The notes under the pieces are model-generated. The model did not search any database, was not told where the DNA came from, and saw only the letters and a list, made by a program, of their open reading frames with translations. A stretch of DNA of 64,000 nucleotides, from positions 124,001 through 188,000 of the forward strand of contig JAFUAO010000010.1 in NCBI GenBank assembly GCA_017460665.1, read 5' to 3'. A program made the position numbers and the translations under genes. Source of the stretch: Ruminococcus sp. (GTDB lineage: Bacteria > Bacillota > Clostridia > Oscillospirales > Ruminococcaceae). This document shows, one piece after another, positions 3,206 to 56,431 of the stretch (the first letter of the stretch is position 1; each line of letters starts with the position of its first letter).

Positions 3206-3436
3206 TTATATATGAGCCTCTGAACATAGCTGTTTAGAGGCTTTTGTTCTCTCGTTTCGGCAGAAGTCAACAAGAGCAGGCTTGGGAATTATGAATTTCT
3301 TTCCAAACCTTATCGCTCCGAGACTTCCATTTTTCACGAGCTCGTAAGCCTGATCCTTTCCAATGCGGAGCAGCTTCGCTGCCTCGGGGACAGTAAGCAC
3401 GTCCGGTTCGTTTCTGAACATTTCTGTATATCTCAT
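3206..3436 (-). CDS. Excisionase-family HTH protein
   Basis: A 76-residue single-domain excisionase (MerR-like HTH plus wing): VLTVPEAAKLLRIGKDQAYE, then GAIRFGKKFIIPKPALV. GGGAGG precedes the ATG by 5 bases. It resembles the excisionase at 52438-52656 in order of motifs, pointing to remains of a related element here. No integrase is adjacent. Confidence 0.75.
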   Translation of the reverse strand: MRYTEMFRNEPDVLTVPEAAKLLRIGKDQAYELVKNGSLGAIRFGKKFIIPKPALVDFCRNERTKASKQLCSEAHI

Positions 3437-18729: not shown

Positions 18730-20199
18730 ATGCTTGGACTGATCAAAAACGAAGCCAACTACACTTTGACACAGAACGGAGCCCTCACGCTCCGCTCATC
18801 AGGGACCGACTGTCTCGATCTCTTCTTCAGCGCCGGAGCTATGCGTGGTGCCTCAAAGGAGGAGATCGCCGAGAGGACGGTCCGTGCCTTTGCCGAGGAT
18901 CCCCACAAGACCATGAGGATCCTCTTTTTCGCCCGTGACGTGAGAGGCGGTCTGGGCGAGCGGCGGTTCTTCCGCAGCGCCATGAGAGCTCTTGTGGAGC
19001 TGGCACCTGCCTCAGTAAAAAAGAATATCGAGAACTTTGCCAAATACGGCCGTTTCGACGACCTGCTCCTCCTGCTGGGGACTCCCCTTGAGAAGGACGC
19101 TGTGGCTCAGATCCAGGCCCAGCTCCAGAAGGACATCGAGTCCATGAAGGCCGGTGAGAGCGTGTCGCTGCTGGCCAAGTGGCTGCCCTCTGCCAACGCC
19201 TCCTCTGCAAAGACTAGGATCATGGGCAAGCGCATGGCGGCCCTCCTCGGAATGGATCAGGCCGGATACCGCAGGACTCTCTCCGCTCTGCGCCGGTACA
19301 TAGACATCCTGGAAAACCGCCTCCGGGAGAAGGACTACACCTTCGACTATGAGGAGCAGCCCTCCCGTGCAATGTTCAAGTACAGGAGCGCCTTTATCCG
19401 CAACGACGGTGAGCGCTACTCCGAGTACCTGAGCCGTGTGTCGGAGGGCAGGGCAGTGCTCCACACCGGCACTCTCTACCCCTACGACATCATACGCTCC
19501 GCCCTTACGGAGGACCTCAGCGAGGAGAGCCGCAGGGCACTTGACGTATCCTGGCAGGCTCTGCCTGACCTGAGGAGCGCAAAGACGGAGAACGCCCTTG
19601 CGGTGATCGACGGCTCAGGCTCCATGACCGTCAGCGCAGGAGATCCTCGCCCGATCGACGCTGCGCTGTCTCTGGGGATCTACTTCGCAGAGCACAATGT
19701 GGGCGCCTTCGCAGACCACTTCATCACCTTCTCCCGGGATCCTCAGCTCGTTAAGATCAAGGGCCGAGACATCGTGGAAAAGGCAAGGTACTGCGAGACC
19801 TTCAACGAGATCGCCAACACGGATCTGGACAAGGTGTTCACGCTGATCCTGAGGGCGGCGGTAAAGAACAGCGTCCCCCAGGAGGAGCTCCCCACAAGGC
19901 TATACATCATCTCCGACATGGAGTTCGACTATGCGGTCTACGGCGGCAACGACGAGCTGCTGTTCCGGGAGAAGAAGCGCCAGTACGAGAAGTACGGCTA
20001 CAAGCTGCCGGAGGTGGTCTTCTGGAACGTGGCCGGAAGGTGCGGCTCTATCCCTGTGGGCCGTGCAGACACTGGGGCGGCTCTGGTGTCGGGGTACTCC
20101 CCTGCTCTGTTTGACATGATCATGAGCGGTGAGATCTCGCCTGAGGCTGTCATGGACAAGATCCTCAGCTCTCCCAGATACTCAGGGATCTGGGCGTAA
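18730..20199 (+). CDS. DUF2828 protein with vWA/MIDAS domain (Ro60-like architecture)
   Basis: A 489-residue protein of the DUF2828 family. Residues 1-270 are helical with the family motifs KTMRILFFARDVRGGLGERRFF and YGRFDDLLLL, followed by KWLPSANASS. The C-terminal half is a von Willebrand A domain with a complete MIDAS signature DGSGSM (about 293-298) and a late IISDMEFD strand. Helical module plus MIDAS vWA is the layout of Ro60/TROVE RNA-binding proteins. Placement beside WYL regulators and a CCA enzyme points to RNA quality control or repair, but RNA binding is inferred, not shown. ATG at 18730 with AAAGGAG 6 bases ahead. Confidence 0.78.
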   Translation: MLGLIKNEANYTLTQNGALTLRSSGTDCLDLFFSAGAMRGASKEEIAERTVRAFAEDPHKTMRILFFARDVRGGLGERRFFRSAMRALVELAPASVKKNIENFAKYGRFDDLLLLLGTPLEKDAVAQIQAQLQKDIESMKAGESVSLLAKWLPSANASSAKTRIMGKRMAALLGMDQAGYRRTLSALRRYIDILENRLREKDYTFDYEEQPSRAMFKYRSAFIRNDGERYSEYLSRVSEGRAVLHTGTLYPYDIIRSALTEDLSEESRRALDVSWQALPDLRSAKTENALAVIDGSGSMTVSAGDPRPIDAALSLGIYFAEHNVGAFADHFITFSRDPQLVKIKGRDIVEKARYCETFNEIANTDLDKVFTLILRAAVKNSVPQEELPTRLYIISDMEFDYAVYGGNDELLFREKKRQYEKYGYKLPEVVFWNVAGRCGSIPVGRADTGAALVSGYSPALFDMIMSGEISPEAVMDKILSSPRYSGIWA

Positions 20200-20243
20200 G
20201 AGAGGCTCCCGGCAGCTCCGGAGCGGACCTTAAGATCGGGTTT

Positions 20244-20315
20244 CCAAAGGGATCACATCCCTTTGGCAGGGTCTGGGACAGAGTCCCAGCGGGAGTCTGA
20301 GGGCAGAGCCCTCAG
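20244..20315. repeat. Three successive perfect hairpins (intergenic repeat element)
   Basis: Stems 20244-20253/20257-20266 (10 bp, loop CAC), 20273-20279/20283-20289 (7 bp, loop AGA) and 20297-20304/20308-20315 (8 bp, loop AGA). The regular spacing and shared AGA triloops suggest a dispersed palindromic element of the REP type rather than three terminators. It lies between the DUF2828 stop and its terminators. Confidence 0.65.
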
Positions 20316-20345
20316 TGGCTTAAAGCGCCTCGCAAGGGGTGAATG

Positions 20346-20410
20346 AAAAAACAGTCCGGGGGACTGTTTTTTCAGAGGGGACGCCTTGTAAGAGAAGGCG
20401 TCCCCTTTTT
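20346..20410 (+). terminator. Two consecutive rho-independent terminators
   Basis: First stem 20346-20357/20361-20372 ending in six T. Second stem 20377-20387/20395-20405 (11 bp GC-rich) followed by five T. They close the DUF2828 transcript. Confidence 0.85.
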
Positions 20411-20474
20411 GCGGTCACTTGCTTTTGACCGCAAGCCGCTTGTCGGCTTGCCAAAATGATCTCCGAAACAACAC

Positions 20475-49909: not shown

Positions 49910-50152
49910 ATGGAAATACGGGTATTACGCTATTTTCTTGCCATTGCAAGAGAGGAAAATATGACAAGGGCTGCCGAGCGCCTGCACATCTCTCAGCCCT
50001 CGCTCTCTAAGGAGATCAAGAAGCTGGAGGAAGAGCTGGACCATGAGCTGTTTATCCGCACCAATAAGAATATGCTCTTGAATGACGAGGGTAAGATAGA
50101 GGTCACATTCTGCAGAAAGCGAAGCGTGGCTCGCAATGTTATACAGCAGTAA
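49910..50152 (+). pseudogene. LysR-family regulator, truncated after the HTH
   Basis: Only the DNA-binding N-terminus remains (YFLAIAREENMTRAAERLHI, then LFIRTNKNMLLNDEG). Native sequence ends at about 50092-50095 and unrelated codons follow to a stop at 50152. The effector domain is absent from the window. The break coincides with the left edge of the element that extends to tRNA-Trp. The short product might still bind DNA. Confidence 0.8.
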
Positions 50153-50389: not shown

Positions 50390-50466
50390 GGTCACAGCGG
50401 ACCGGCGAAGCCGACCGCAATTCGCCAAAAAACAAAAACAAGCAAAAGGAGTCGTAAATTCTTCGT

Positions 50467-50551: not shown

Positions 50552-50971
50552 ATGGAGAAAAAGGAAAAACAGGCGGTGTGGCTCTACCCAAAGACAAAAG
50601 AGCTGATGGTTGATCACCTGAAGGAAGCAAACGCCACATCTCAGAGTGACTTCATTGAGAAAGCAATCAGGTTTTATTCGGGCTATCTCGACAGCACATC
50701 GAGTACCGCAACGGAATATCTCGGGCACGTACTGACGTCGATCATCGACGGGATCGTAAAAGGTTCAGAGTACAGGATCAACCGTGGACTCTTCAAGCTG
50801 GCGGTGGAGTCGGCAATGCAGTCCCACATCATCGCGGCAGTTAATGATATTGATGACGAGACTATCGATGACCTCAGAGGTATGTGTGTAGACGAAGTAC
50901 GTCGCATAAACGGCGTGATAAACTTCGAGCGAGCCTACGATTACCAGAAAGGGAGTGATGACGATGAGTGA
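50552..50971 (+). CDS. Ribbon-helix-helix-like element protein 1
   Basis: A 139-residue protein. The N-terminus KQAVWLYPKTKELMVDHLKE, then SQSDFIEKAIRFYSGYL, has the strand-helix-helix pattern of Arc/CopG DNA-binding proteins. The C-terminal part (LFKLAVESAMQSHIIAAV, DEVRRINGVINFE) is a conserved helical domain also seen in the remnant at 3826-4030. AGGAGG precedes the ATG. Probably an element regulator or partition-like protein; it overlaps the next gene by 8 bases. Confidence 0.75.
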   Translation: MEKKEKQAVWLYPKTKELMVDHLKEANATSQSDFIEKAIRFYSGYLDSTSSTATEYLGHVLTSIIDGIVKGSEYRINRGLFKLAVESAMQSHIIAAVNDIDDETIDDLRGMCVDEVRRINGVINFERAYDYQKGSDDDE

Positions 50972-51404
50972 AAAAGTGAGGACGGGCATTTATATTTCCA
51001 AGGACTTGCTCCGCGAGTGCGACGAATATCTTTCAAAGAACAGTGGCAGCCGTTCGGAGCTTATTGAATCAGCACTGAGATTATACTTGGCGACGCGGAC
51101 AATAAAAACGAAGTCGGAAGTGCTCGTGCCTGAACTCGCGGAGTGCATCTCCGCAGCCAGTGACGAGGGGATAATAAAAATATCAAAAGGACTTTTCAGA
51201 TACGCAGTCGAGGTGGAAATGCTCATTGTGCTGCTGTCGGAGACCTTTGGTGTCAGCAAAAATCATCTCAAGGACGTCCGCCGCGAAGCAGTCAACAACG
51301 TCCGCAGAACGAGGGGAAAGATAAATCTTGATGACCTTATTATGCGTAATGAGCGTGAGGGTATCATTGATAATGATGACTCCTCGATACAGAGACTCGA
51401 CTAA
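50964..51404 (+). CDS. Ribbon-helix-helix-like element protein 2
   Basis: A 146-residue paralog of the preceding protein: VRTGIYISKDLLRECDEYL, then SRSELIESALRLYLAT (RHH core), and LFRYAVEVEML with DVRREAVNNVRRTRG. Start at 50964 overlaps the previous stop, so both are translated together and could form a heterodimer. The stop codon lies inside the first hairpin of the array that follows. Confidence 0.78.
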   Translation: MSEKVRTGIYISKDLLRECDEYLSKNSGSRSELIESALRLYLATRTIKTKSEVLVPELAECISAASDEGIIKISKGLFRYAVEVEMLIVLLSETFGVSKNHLKDVRREAVNNVRRTRGKINLDDLIMRNEREGIIDNDDSSIQRLD

Positions 51405-51922
51405 CTCAGGGGCAAAATACCCGTGAGTTATATCCATAGCTCGACTACCGTTATGATAATTGAAGTCCCGAAACAGGACTGCACTCAGTCCCAGCTCAGG
51501 AGCGTGTTCCCGAAATGGAAATTCGGTATGGCGGGATGAAATATCCCGTCACGACTATGAGGTGGTGTAACGCCACCTCATCATATACCTGAGTCGGCGA
51601 AACACAGGCTCAGCAAAGGGAGTGTACAAAACAGACAGCCCTGATGTAAGAAAACACGACATCAGCTTACGGTGAACGAAACGTTCACCGTCTATGTACC
51701 TGCATTGAATCAGGGCGGGGGGTGGACAATTCGTTCAGCACCGACAGGCGTTGCCAAAACGGCAGCACCTTAAATCATCCGTATCGGAAGGTATGAGCTG
51801 ACAGAACGATTTGTTCGGTCAGGAGATAGAGTAACGAAACGCGACTCCAGCTCATTACTCCAAAGGGTGTCATGAAACGTGACAGCCTTTGCAATAAGGG
51901 TATCGTTAAAGCCGATACCCTT
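51402..51922 (+). ncRNA. Hairpin-array RNA candidate (about 12 hairpins, 520 nt)
   Basis: No open frame of 60 codons exists on either strand from about 51440 to 51995, yet hairpins follow almost without gaps (coordinates +51000): 402-412/420-430; 464-468/476-480; 510-514/522-526; 530-537/543-550; 557-565/573-581; 589-595/607-613; 669-677/683-691; 747-755/761-769; 798-807/813-822; 829-832/844-847; 861-873/879-891; 896-905/913-922. An outer pairing 638-645/709-716 competes with 641-647/659-665. Loops repeatedly contain GAAAC (exact in two) or close variants. It lies between co-directional element genes. It may be a large ornate RNA of the ROOL/GOLLD kind or something new; I could not match it to a class by eye. 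Confidence 0.6.
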
Positions 51923-52026
51923 GTGGTGTTTCTGCTCTGTTTCAACTGGCAGTTTTCATCAGGTTTGATGAATGGATTTCGTCCGAGTGCTGTGGTATGA
52001 TTGTTGGTCAGGAGGTGACCGCGGCA

Positions 52027-52305
52027 ATGAAGTTACAGGATCTATACTACGGAAATATTACGCCATGCGAGCACAGCGTTAAGAGCGAGTCCGACTATGC
52101 AAAGCGAAGTCTGGAGCTCCTCGAGATGTGCGACTCATTGAAGGAAAGGCTGTCGGCTGACGATAAGAAGCTGCTCAACGAGATAACGGATACGCACGAA
52201 AAGTTGTCCGAGACAATGGTGGCAGAGAGCTATGCACAGGGCTTTCGTGACTGCGCTGAGCTTATCATAGACGTTATGTTCGGCAAGAGCGAGAACCTGA
52301 AATAA
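52027..52305 (+). CDS. Small conserved element protein (DUF6809-like)
   Basis: A 92-residue helical protein (MKLQDLYYGNITPCE, then two long helices and YAQGFRDCAELIIDVM). It resembles the DUF6809 proteins found in mobile elements of gut Firmicutes. AGGAGGTGA lies 9 bases before the ATG at 52027. It directly follows the hairpin array and ends at a strong terminator. Confidence 0.7.
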   Translation: MKLQDLYYGNITPCEHSVKSESDYAKRSLELLEMCDSLKERLSADDKKLLNEITDTHEKLSETMVAESYAQGFRDCAELIIDVMFGKSENLK

Positions 52306-52437: not shown

Positions 52438-52656
52438 TTGGCAGATATTGAAAAGATGTACGACAAGATGTTTACCGATTACCCCGACGTGGTGAGCGTT
52501 CCGCAGTTGATGAAAATGCTGTCGGTAGGTCGCCATGCAGCTTATGAATTAGTAAGCAGCGGCGAGATACAGAGCTTCAAGGTCGGTAAGAATATAAGGA
52601 TACCAAAGATAAAAGTTATTGAATATATACTCGGAACAAGGAGGTGCTGCCTATGA
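52438..52656 (+). CDS. Excisionase-family HTH protein
   Basis: A 72-residue Xis-like protein: VVSVPQLMKMLSVGRHAAYE, then IQSFKVGKNIRIPKIKVIEYI. Start read as TTG at 52438, 7 bases after GAGAGGT. It overlaps the integrase start by 4 bases, the normal xis-int arrangement. Confidence 0.82.
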   Translation: MADIEKMYDKMFTDYPDVVSVPQLMKMLSVGRHAAYELVSSGEIQSFKVGKNIRIPKIKVIEYILGTRRCCL

Positions 52657-53867
52657 AAAATGTGACAGGAAGTCTGCAAACCAAGCGCGGCAAGTACTAC
52701 GCCGTACTGAATTTATACGACCACACAGGCAAATGAAAACAGAAGTGGATATCCACAGGATACGAAGTCCGAGGGAATAAGAAAGCCGCGAAAGCTTTTC
52801 TTGATGAGCTGCTTGTCGCCTACAACAAGAAGCAGCAGGCAGCACTAAAGGTGATATCCAAGATGAAAGATCCCGAACATTTCATAAAGGAGCAGAGCCG
52901 CATAATGGCTCTGCCCCTCTTTTTATTTGTGGAAGAATGGATAGACCACGTATCAGTCAAGCTCCAGCCGACTACCATTGACGGCTACAAAAGCCTCTGC
53001 AACGGACGAATAAGAGAGTTCTTCGAGAGCAGAGGCACTACCGTTTATGATCTCACGGGCGAGGACCTGAACGAGTTCTACGCCTACCTTACAAGGCAGG
53101 GACTGAAAGGCGTTACTCAGCAGAAGTACCATGCGCTGATACATTCCGCATACAGCTTTCTCGTTAAGCACCAGTACATTGACAGCAATCCATGTGACTT
53201 CGCCGACCGTCCTAAGTCTGAGAAGTACCGTGGAGCCTACTATAACCAGTCAGAGCTGACGAAGCTGTTTCATGCGGTGAAAGAAAGTGAAATATACATT
53301 TCTGTGCTTCTTGCTGCCTATTATGGTCTTCGACGCAGCGAGGTCGTAGGTATCAAATGGAGCAACATCGACTTTGAGAACGGCACTATCCGTATCTCAC
53401 ACAAGGTCGTGGAGCAGTTGGTGGACGGCAAATATCAGGAGGTCGGACATGATAAAATGAAAACGGAGTCCAGCAACAGAATACTTCCGCTGATGAAGGA
53501 CGTGGCAATGGCTCTGCGGAGGCTGAAGCACCACCAGGACGAGCAGCGCCGTTTATGCGGAAACTCTTACGTTCACGAATACGATGACTACGTCTGCGTG
53601 AACGAAATAGGACAACTCCTCAGACCAAATTATATATCAGCAAAGTTCGGGGAGCTGCTGAAAGAAAACGGCTTGAAGCACATACGCTATCACGACCTCC
53701 GCCACAGTTGCGCGAGCCTGCTTCTCGCCAACGGAGTTCCCATGAAAGAGATACAGGAATGGCTGGGGCACTCGAACTACCGCACAACTGCCGACGTTTA
53801 TTCTCATCTTGATTTCAGCAGCAAGGAGCATTCGGCGGAGATAATTTCGCAGGTGTTGGCGGTATGA
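52653..53867 (+). pseudogene. Tyrosine integrase with in-frame TGA
   Basis: Full-length integrase frame from ATG 52653 (MKNVTGSLQTKRGKYYAVL) with a TGA at 52734-52736 (codon 28). The paralog at 54910 has Arg at that position, so CGA to TGA is the simple explanation. The remainder is intact: SAM-like core-binding domain and catalytic motifs YYGLRRSEVVGIKW, HDLRHSCASLLL and LGHSNYRTTADVYSHL. An internal start near 52851 would give a 338-residue protein lacking the arm-binding domain. Confidence 0.85.
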
Positions 53868-54909: not shown

Positions 54910-56127
54910 ATGAAAGAAGTAACAGGAAATCTGCAAGTAAAAAACGGCAAGTACTATGTGCTTGTGAATCTGTACGACCGCAGCGGTAAACGCTCGATAA
55001 AGTGGGTGTCACTGGGACTTGACAGCAAGGGAGGCAAGAAAGCGGCAAAGGCTCGCATGGCGGAGGTGCTGGAGGAGTACAACCGCAATCAGCGAAAGCT
55101 CCTGAGAGCCGTCAGCAAGAAGAAAGCTCCCGAGCAGTTCATTCAGCAGCGTGAGCAGGTGCAGTATCAGACGGTGACTGAGTTCCTCACGGACTGGATA
55201 AACCTGTCATCAGGCAGGCTTCAGCCGTCCACGATAGATGGCTACAAGAAGCTGGTTGACGGCAGGATAACCGAATTCTTCGGTGACAGCGGTATAACCG
55301 TCGGCGACCTTACAGGCGAGGACCTGAACGATTTCTACGCCTGCCTTGAAGAAGCAGGACTGTCGGGAACTTCGGCTCTGCGCTATCATGGACTTATCCA
55401 TGCGGCGTTCAAGTATGCGGTGAAGAAGGAGCTCCTCGATGATAATCCCTGCGACCATGCAGACCGTCCCAAGCAGGAGCGCTACCGCGCCTCATTTTAC
55501 AGCGAGGAAGAGCTGAAAGATTTGCTGACGGCGGCGAGGGATTCTCCAGTGTTCATTCCGATAATGCTTGCGGCGTACTATGGGCTCAGGCGGAGCGAGG
55601 CTCTCGGGCTGAAATGGAGCAACATCGACTTCCAGACCAAGACCATATCTATATCGCACAAGGTCATCGAAGCCAATGTTGACGGCAAATTTCAGGCAAA
55701 GGGCTTCGACAGAATGAAGAACCAGTCCAGTAACAGGACTCTTCCGCTCATCGAGGACGTTGAAAATGAGCTGCTATATCACAGACAGCAGCAGAAAATG
55801 AATGCGTCAGTTCTGTGGGGAGCGTACTGCCACGAATACGACGATCACGTCTGCACCGACAGCACGGGCAAGCTCCTGCGTCCCAATTACATCTCAACGC
55901 AGTTCGGAAAGCTGCTCAAGGAAAACGGATTCCGCCACATACGTTTCCACGACCTGCGACACACCTGTGCCAGCTTATTGCTGAAAAACGGCGTGCCCAT
56001 GAAGGCGATACAGGAGTGGCTGGGACACTCAACGTTCGAGGTAACAGCCAACATTTATGCTCATCTGGACTACTCCAGCAAGGAGCGTTCGGCGGCAAAA
56101 ATAGCGCAGGTACTTGCCATAAAGTGA
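54910..56127 (+). CDS. int: Tyrosine recombinase/integrase
   Basis: A 405-residue integrase: AP2-like arm-binding domain (1-60, KNGKYYVLVNLYDRSGKR), core-binding domain (about 75-180), catalytic domain with Arg in YYGLRRSEALGLKW, HDLRHTCASLLL and LGHSTFEVTANIYAHL, with the Tyr in the last motif. AGGAGG precedes the ATG. It is closely related to the mutated integrase upstream. Its 3' end faces the 3' end of tRNA-Trp 229 bases away, so that tRNA is the probable attachment target. Confidence 0.93.
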   Translation: MKEVTGNLQVKNGKYYVLVNLYDRSGKRSIKWVSLGLDSKGGKKAAKARMAEVLEEYNRNQRKLLRAVSKKKAPEQFIQQREQVQYQTVTEFLTDWINLSSGRLQPSTIDGYKKLVDGRITEFFGDSGITVGDLTGEDLNDFYACLEEAGLSGTSALRYHGLIHAAFKYAVKKELLDDNPCDHADRPKQERYRASFYSEEELKDLLTAARDSPVFIPIMLAAYYGLRRSEALGLKWSNIDFQTKTISISHKVIEANVDGKFQAKGFDRMKNQSSNRTLPLIEDVENELLYHRQQQKMNASVLWGAYCHEYDDHVCTDSTGKLLRPNYISTQFGKLLKENGFRHIRFHDLRHTCASLLLKNGVPMKAIQEWLGHSTFEVTANIYAHLDYSSKERSAAKIAQVLAIK

Positions 56128-56355: not shown

Positions 56356-56431
56356 TGGCAGGGGCAGAAGGACTTGAACCCTCGGCACGCGGTTTTGGAG
56401 ACCGCTGCTCTACCAACTGAGCTATACCCCT
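56356..56431 (-). tRNA. tRNA-Trp (anticodon CCA)
   Basis: A complete 76-nt cloverleaf on the minus strand: acceptor AGGGGTA with TGCCCCT, D arm AGCTCAGTTGGTAGAGC, anticodon loop CTCCAAA with anticodon CCA, T loop TTCAAGT, discriminator G and encoded CCA end. Confidence 0.95.

Follow-up and report, generated by a model that had tools for sequence, protein, structure and literature searches.

Large structured non-coding stretches in a mobile or phage context are known from the ROOL and GOLLD families, both of which are in Rfam 15. Short palindromes, some lying within genes and some in intergenic clusters, make up the Rickettsia palindromic elements and the REP and BIME repeats; in type III toxin-antitoxin loci an RNA unit recurs as tandem direct repeats next to a toxin gene, and a CRISPR array is a row of short pieces corresponding to phage sequence. 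For the control of phage antirepressors by trans-acting RNAs there is an established precedent in sar and c4, as the excerpt cited from PMC12197685 presents it. Intergenic stem-loops next to a mobilisation gene are described for ICEBs1, where sso1 lies directly downstream of nicK (PMC4595007, excerpt).

Here we analyse an array of about 14 hairpins in an integrated element of a Ruminococcus genome, within a 64,000-nucleotide stretch of DNA that we call the window. Unlike ROOL and GOLLD, the array has neither a covariance-model match nor a fixed overall fold. It differs from the Rickettsia elements, REP and BIME in that many unrelated array stems share one gene site, which is present in a gene family without insertion. 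The likeness to CRISPR is one of analogy only, since the array has no repeats or spacers and its matched pieces derive from a single site in a single gene family, with the palindrome kept; a search for copies up to 120 nt apart found no direct-repeat family in it, which speaks against both a CRISPR array (no identical direct repeats) and a type III toxin-antitoxin RNA. As we read it below, the array would resemble c4 RNA (P1/P7) and sar RNA (P22) in acting in trans on the phage antirepressor switch, but those are, in the excerpt of PMC12197685, single phage-borne RNAs working at ant translation initiation, whereas the array would present many hairpins from a mobilisable element and corresponds to variable-loop codons. 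With sso1 it shares intergenic stem-loops directly 3' of a relaxase gene; the cited excerpt (PMC4595007) gives sso1 three predicted stem-loops, whereas the array hairpins are exchangeable and the whole is missing from most relatives of the relaxase locus.

The array and the element that carries it

The gene order of the integrated element is RHH-like pair, array, DUF6809, HTH_17 and tyrosine integrase, with the following features in window coordinates:

50391..50419, + strand: conserved hairpin-like site of about 28 bp, 5' of the RHH genes (90-94% identity over 26-33 bp in 18 distant RHH loci)
50552..50971, + strand: RHH-like protein 1 (Pfam RHH_1 E 0.016, below cut-off), a paralogue of RHH-like protein 2 (28-34% identical)
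50964..51404, + strand: RHH-like protein 2 (Pfam RHH_1 E 0.001, below cut-off)
51402..51925, + strand: hairpin array (fold z -7.8; recurs in relatives)
51926..51996, + strand: leader of the DUF6809 gene, common to array-less loci
51997..52305, + strand: DUF6809 protein (Pfam E 2.6e-18)
52438..52656, + strand: HTH_17 protein, excisionase-like (Pfam E 3.8e-9)
52851..53867, + strand: tyrosine integrase (Pfam E 2.1e-28)

We find that the array is genuine, structured and without evident coding. No ORF of at least 50 aa lies entirely within 51438-51774; an 84-aa minus-strand ORF overlaps the array only by its first 36 nt, and a 56-aa minus-strand ORF spans 51775-51945. The RNA fold of the + strand over 51402-51925 reaches -200.8 kcal/mol (the z score listed above), that of the - strand has a z of -5.75, and on each strand none of 100 shuffles folds as well. 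Rfam gives no match to the array at the gathering threshold, nor at a relaxed one up to E 5. A preliminary description, made from the letters of the window without database searches, had proposed a dense, structured, non-coding feature inside an integrated element, and fold, conservation and lack of an Rfam match bear this out. Its DUF6809-like neighbour is confirmed by Pfam, whereas the two RHH-like proteins it named do have Pfam matches, but weak ones below the cut-off.

The array's excess lies in total folding and conservation rather than in the count of perfect stems: with perfect Watson-Crick stems of at least 7 bp and loops of 3-9, the array has 3 hairpins, which is not extreme, against 7 at 20173-20434. 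The stretch at 20173-20434 is a second hairpin-rich intergenic region of the window, its 7 perfect hairpins having stems of 7-14 bp unlike those of the array. Ten of the 14 array hairpins have 5-nt loops (three free bases when the closing pair counts as stem), mostly A-rich (GAAAC, GAAAT, AAAAC, GAATC). Recurrent GAAAC loops had been singled out at the outset, but they are not the conserved part; the arms are conserved, the loops vary, and many arms match antirepressor palindromes. Two mutually exclusive pairings had also been proposed, and both are present in the window, but alignment A1 shows poor conservation of either: GCCCTGAT, the 5' strand of the first, occurs in 2 of 17 rows (the window and L076 only), and CAGCTC, the 3' strand of the second, in 5 of 17. 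A1 is an array alignment in which near-identical arrays fetched twice are entered once (L080 as L079, L013 as L085, L016 as L082, L014 as L086, L011 as L087); L017, L091, L092 and the distant arrays stand outside it.

An array is found in 22 of 125 Ruminococcus genomes at E 1e-10 (24 match, of which G021 and G024, with a match confined to the DUF6809 leader, are excluded). The strains R. flavefaciens ATCC 19208 and YAD2003 each have an array. A wider search of 199 relatives including other genera gives 28 matching genomes at E 1e-4, all in one genus of 56. The window's own genome holds a second copy elsewhere, 81% identical, and blastn of the window array against plasmid and phage collections gives no match. 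Usually the array sits between a mobilisation module and DUF6809/xis/integrase; L082 and L085 have it without DUF6809. In loci such as L077, L078, L079, L081 and L084 it follows a MobA relaxase gene in place of the RHH pair, and several MobA-type loci have a MobC-like gene ahead of the relaxase; Pfam identifies the pair of L077 as NikA-like (1.2e-19) and Relaxase (5.4e-39). Because many copies follow a relaxase gene instead, the array is not tied to the RHH pair: dependence on that pair is rejected, and the functional tie that had been suggested earlier is not supported.

Among 56 relaxase loci with a readable 3' flank (60 were given; 3 have no relaxase match, and L164 and L216 are the same relaxase), at least three array modules occur in 14 and at most one in 37, in a scan where some H6 matches are spurious. 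Many of these loci are array-less and pass directly from the relaxase gene into DUF6809 or another gene, which makes the array an optional cassette, with the stop codon of the upstream gene on one side and the DUF6809 leader on the other. In array-less relaxase loci homology restarts at about 51926 (read by eye), and the leader gives separate matches in array-less loci to positions 532-589 of the query; we guess by eye that a promoter lies in 51926..51996. The site at 50391..50419 is shared by 18 RHH loci whose proteins are in most cases only some 50% identical, and may be an oriT core or an RHH operator.

Alignments of the arrays show whole hairpins lost and gained, with conserved arms and variable loops. 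The stem order in the window family is H4-H6-H8-H12; in L025, L119 and L130 it is H12-H8-H4, preceded by H6 in L025 and L119, and in L028 it is H6-H12-H4 with an IS inside H8 (shuffled sequence yields 0.18 module matches per array). Elements of the IS1182 family sit inside hairpin loops of four arrays, L083, L028, L088 and L094. The transposase of the L083 copy scores 384 bits with NCBIfam, where the cut-off is 270. The 5-bp target duplication is the loop itself in L083 and L028, and in L088 and L094 the loops on the two sides of the IS differ; IS1272, a relative of these elements, targets inverted repeats according to the excerpt cited from PMC5678879. The functional unit thus seems to be the hairpin: its arms are conserved, its loop varies at near-constant length, its flanks are unrelated, and it is exchanged as a whole.

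Array hairpins and the hypervariable site of Bro-N antirepressors

We compared the arms of 14 window hairpins with 149 Bro-N hypervariable stretches, leaving out H7 and H11. The hairpins are listed with their arm mismatches to the closest Bro-N palindrome:

51403..51429, + strand: H1, no Bro-N match found (5/18)
51462..51482, + strand: H2, Bro-N type (1/14; 2 of 200 shuffles as good)
51503..51525, + strand: H3, no Bro-N match found (6/18; IMG/VR pattern in Bro-N 0/21)
51529..51551, + strand: H4, Bro-N type, GMKHPV allele (2/18; near copies inside antirepressor genes)
51558..51580, + strand: H5, Bro-N type (2/18)
51591..51611, + strand: H6, no clear Bro-N match (5/16)
51619..51641, + strand: H6b, decayed in the window (4/18; better-preserved copy in relatives 1/18)
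51641..51665, + strand: H7, outside the arm comparison
51669..51691, + strand: H8, Bro-N type, TVNESFTV allele (0/18)
51698..51720, + strand: H9, decayed in the window (4/18), Bro-N type in relatives, LIQG allele (2/18)
51747..51769, + strand: H10, no Bro-N match found (7/18; IMG/VR pattern in Bro-N 0/25)
51799..51821, + strand: H12, Bro-N type, LTER allele (2/18)
51827..51849, + strand: H13, Bro-N type, GVTKRDS-like (window 3/18; relatives 1/18)
51864..51888, + strand: H15, Bro-N type, KGVMKRDT-like (1/18; inside Bro-N in 28 of 55 viral contigs)
51896..51922, + strand: H16, Bro-N type, KGIVK-like (1/18)

At least half of the array hairpins, 7 of 14 by the window's own letters and 10 of 14 by family arms, very probably copy the palindrome of the Bro-N hypervariable site. 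The window's letters give the 7 at up to two arm mismatches and 8 at up to three; the higher family count, also at up to two, uses hand-chosen arms, some of them taken from relatives that preserve them better. Among 47 control hairpins (8 bp or longer, drawn from the window and neighbouring loci, some of which are near-identical), none matches at up to two mismatches and one does at three. In the rearranged arrays L025, L028, L119 and L130, which are partly related to each other and have some hairpins in common, 9 of 14 automatically found hairpins match at up to two mismatches (3/5, 3/5, 1/1 and 2/3). H1, H3, H6 and H10 have no convincing Bro-N partner, nor do two of the three extra hairpins of L025. 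Across ten modules compared with Bro-N, arms are 79-97% identical, loops 27-76% and 15-nt flanks 17-45% (the arms, unlike loops and flanks, were selected by similarity), so that the similarity falls off at the edges of the palindrome.

The H8 pattern has 11 sites in 199 genomes, 9 in arrays and 2 in Bro-N genes, and the H4 pattern, with one mismatch, has 19 sites in 125 genomes; of the 17 H4-like sites read, 11 are in arrays (one being the IS-split array of L028), 2 in Bro-N genes (one a gene fragment) and 4 elsewhere. In Bro-N genes H8 and H4 occupy the same position, directly 3' of the HVDxED codons, and three whole genes carrying these palindromes have Bro-N followed by KilAC in Pfam, with E below 1e-19. 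As palindromes, these sequences read much the same in either direction, and translation does not tell how array hairpins are oriented relative to Bro-N. In a scan of IMG/VR for the patterns regardless of genes, H8 falls within Bro-N in 11 of 55 contigs and H15 in the number given above, both at HMM positions 55-59; the share of Bro-N in the viral DNA fetched is 0.9% (H8 contigs) and 2.1% (H15 contigs). Outside Bro-N the H8 pattern lies in 44 of 55 contigs and H15 in 27 of 55 (contigs not dereplicated); two H3-like palindromes, in L372 and L379, also lie outside Bro-N. In one viral contig (L521:5723-5807) three non-coding palindromes, including one of H15 type, stand in a row about 600 nt upstream of a Bro-N gene. 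Another that carries a Bro-N gene has two H15-type palindromes (L537:2892-2918 and 3273-3299), which lie near two small genes that look RHH-like by eye.

How unusual is a palindrome at this site? Of 67 Bro-N genes of the genus, 29 have a hairpin with 8 or more Watson-Crick pairs at codons 48-62, where 1.1 would be expected from synonymous codon shuffles (67 distinct genes tested out of 70 places read and 85 found, the weakest mostly left out). The same test gives 11 of 67 against 2.15 expected for viral Bro-N (67 distinct genes among the best 80 of 596 relatives of one query). Both arms vary jointly, with amino acids altered on both sides: TTALIQGGG, TTTLIQGSG and TSALIQGTG are each encoded by a perfect palindrome. 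Given this excess over shuffles and these joint changes, the palindrome itself seems to be under selection in Bro-N genes. A plain operator beside the gene is not supported, because the palindrome does not recur close by: of 68 Bro-N palindromes, 1 has a further copy at up to 3 mismatches within 1.5 kb of the gene, against 3 of 272 in the control.

Bro-N genes at E 1e-8 occur in 44 of 125 genomes of the genus, and the window's own genome has none at this threshold. Of the 22 array genomes 4 have such genes, compared with 40 of the 103 others (p 0.086); once four genomes with rearranged or partial arrays are added, the counts are 5 of 26 and 39 of 99 (p 0.067). Neither value is corrected for descent, and the trend towards mutual exclusion of array and Bro-N is suggestive but not significant.

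In the open literature, the part covered by our search, we found nothing on a palindromic Bro-N hypervariable site or on arrays of it; subscription journals and preprints lie outside that scope. Within this coverage both findings look new: the frequent encoding of the hypervariable site of phage Bro-N antirepressors as a DNA palindrome kept against chance, and the presence of non-coding arrays of these palindromes on mobile elements of another kind, appear to be undescribed. Either would help to work out how antirepressors acquire and exchange their specificity. The match between array and Bro-N points to a connection between mobile elements and phages that seems not to have been described before, and the two findings together make a new form of interference between them open to direct test.

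What the array may do

Our preferred interpretation, which we hold as a real possibility rather than as the probable answer, is that the array may serve as a target mimic acting on the phage antirepressor switch, as RNA or as DNA. Placed directly 3' of mobilisation or RHH genes, it would supply in trans many copies of a hairpin that is recognised by a factor of the phage switch, the antirepressor being the simplest candidate. By titrating that factor, the array would hold incoming or resident phages from switching to lysis, and since one array carries the hairpins of several antirepressor alleles it could cover several phages. The active form would be either the transcript or the DNA palindrome. 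Cells of G.T exceed those of A.C in the array by 180:114, by 90:78 in strict stems (pair sites 36:27, p 0.31), by 187:65 in hand-curated stems (pair sites 52:33, p 0.05) and by 119:62 in a fourth way of counting (pair sites 48:37, p 0.28); Bro-N palindromes show no excess (25:28). We take the array's excess as a weak hint of a + strand RNA.

The main rival, which we consider rather unlikely, grants the hairpins of array and Bro-N a shared form without a shared target. Both would belong to one class of short palindromes with a common mode of spread or formation, whether as selfish palindromic units, by hairpin template switching or through transposase-linked events, and the array would mainly be an insulating or terminating, hairpin-rich 3' end of an operon. 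In 14 contigs hand-picked from the 27 viral contigs with H15 outside Bro-N, the palindrome lies outside predicted ORFs (60 aa) in 11, and in 5 of these 11 it sits 7-9 nt past a stop codon, like a terminator. The row of three hairpins in L521, the four H4-like sites outside both arrays and Bro-N genes, the terminator-like H16 and the IS1182-family elements in the loops of L083 and L028, next to the inverted-repeat targeting of IS1272 (PMC5678879, excerpt), fit this explanation as well. Against it, H4, H5, H8, H12 and H13 do not look terminator-like by eye, yet they are 0-3 mismatches from Bro-N arms; palindromy in Bro-N accompanies amino-acid changes on both arms and so appears selected; and H8 sites in 199 genomes occur only in arrays and Bro-N genes. 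A trans antisense RNA of the c4/sar kind, distinctly unlikely in our view, would have the array transcript pair with antirepressor mRNAs and block them. Antisense control of ant mRNA has precedent (PMC12197685, excerpt), each palindrome is able to pair arm to arm with its mRNA copy, and the + strand folds somewhat better than the - strand. But sar and c4, in that excerpt, work at translation initiation or near the ribosome-binding site, whereas the array matches codons of about 48-62, and the listed loops of array and Bro-N are mostly non-complementary, so that kissing would start poorly.

Two further explanations take the array by its position or its bulk. A single-strand origin, or another ssDNA structure for mobilisation like sso1 of ICEBs1, was initially favoured by the shared location directly 3' of a relaxase gene (in L077 identified as such by Pfam) and then weakened by the array-less relaxase loci: the presence of the array is not constant there (14 of 56 with at least three modules), RHH-type elements such as the window's have the array without that relaxase-adjacent position, and the Bro-N matches would go unexplained, which makes this very unlikely. 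Kinship with ROOL, GOLLD or a similar large ornate RNA, raised in the preliminary description, would suit the size, hairpin density and mobile context; however, the Rfam covariance-model scan found no such match at either threshold, and modules are lost, gained and permuted, unlike one conserved fold, so that we regard it as extremely improbable.

A broader version of the target-mimic interpretation, unlikely as a whole, is that mobilisable elements keep a growing and shrinking archive of antirepressor specificity hairpins, a hairpin-based immune memory to which phages answer by changing the palindrome. Each hairpin would then disarm the lytic switch of all phages with the matching antirepressor allele, and phages would respond by altering both palindrome arms at once within their own coding sequence. 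If this were true, the hypervariable loop of Bro-N, with its palindrome, would serve at once as a site recognised in the nucleic acid and as the loop that gives the protein its specificity.

Observations in the neighbourhood

At 49910-50152 of the window, all that remains of a LysR-family gene is the N-terminal helix-turn-helix portion; the left end of the element may have truncated it. A second tyrosine integrase (54910-56127) adjoins a tRNA-Trp gene (56356-56431) and probably marks another integrated element. An uncultured Ruminiclostridium contig carries a CRISPR-like array at L037:7480-9980. Beside these mobilisable elements we also see a protein of 1012 aa that matches an RdRP family (PF05183, E 7.5e-16), on the minus strand at L076:4858-7893; 5 of the 20 loci from L076 to L095 contain its cluster, with homologues in L078, L079, L081 and L090, the PF05183 match being established for the L076 copy alone.
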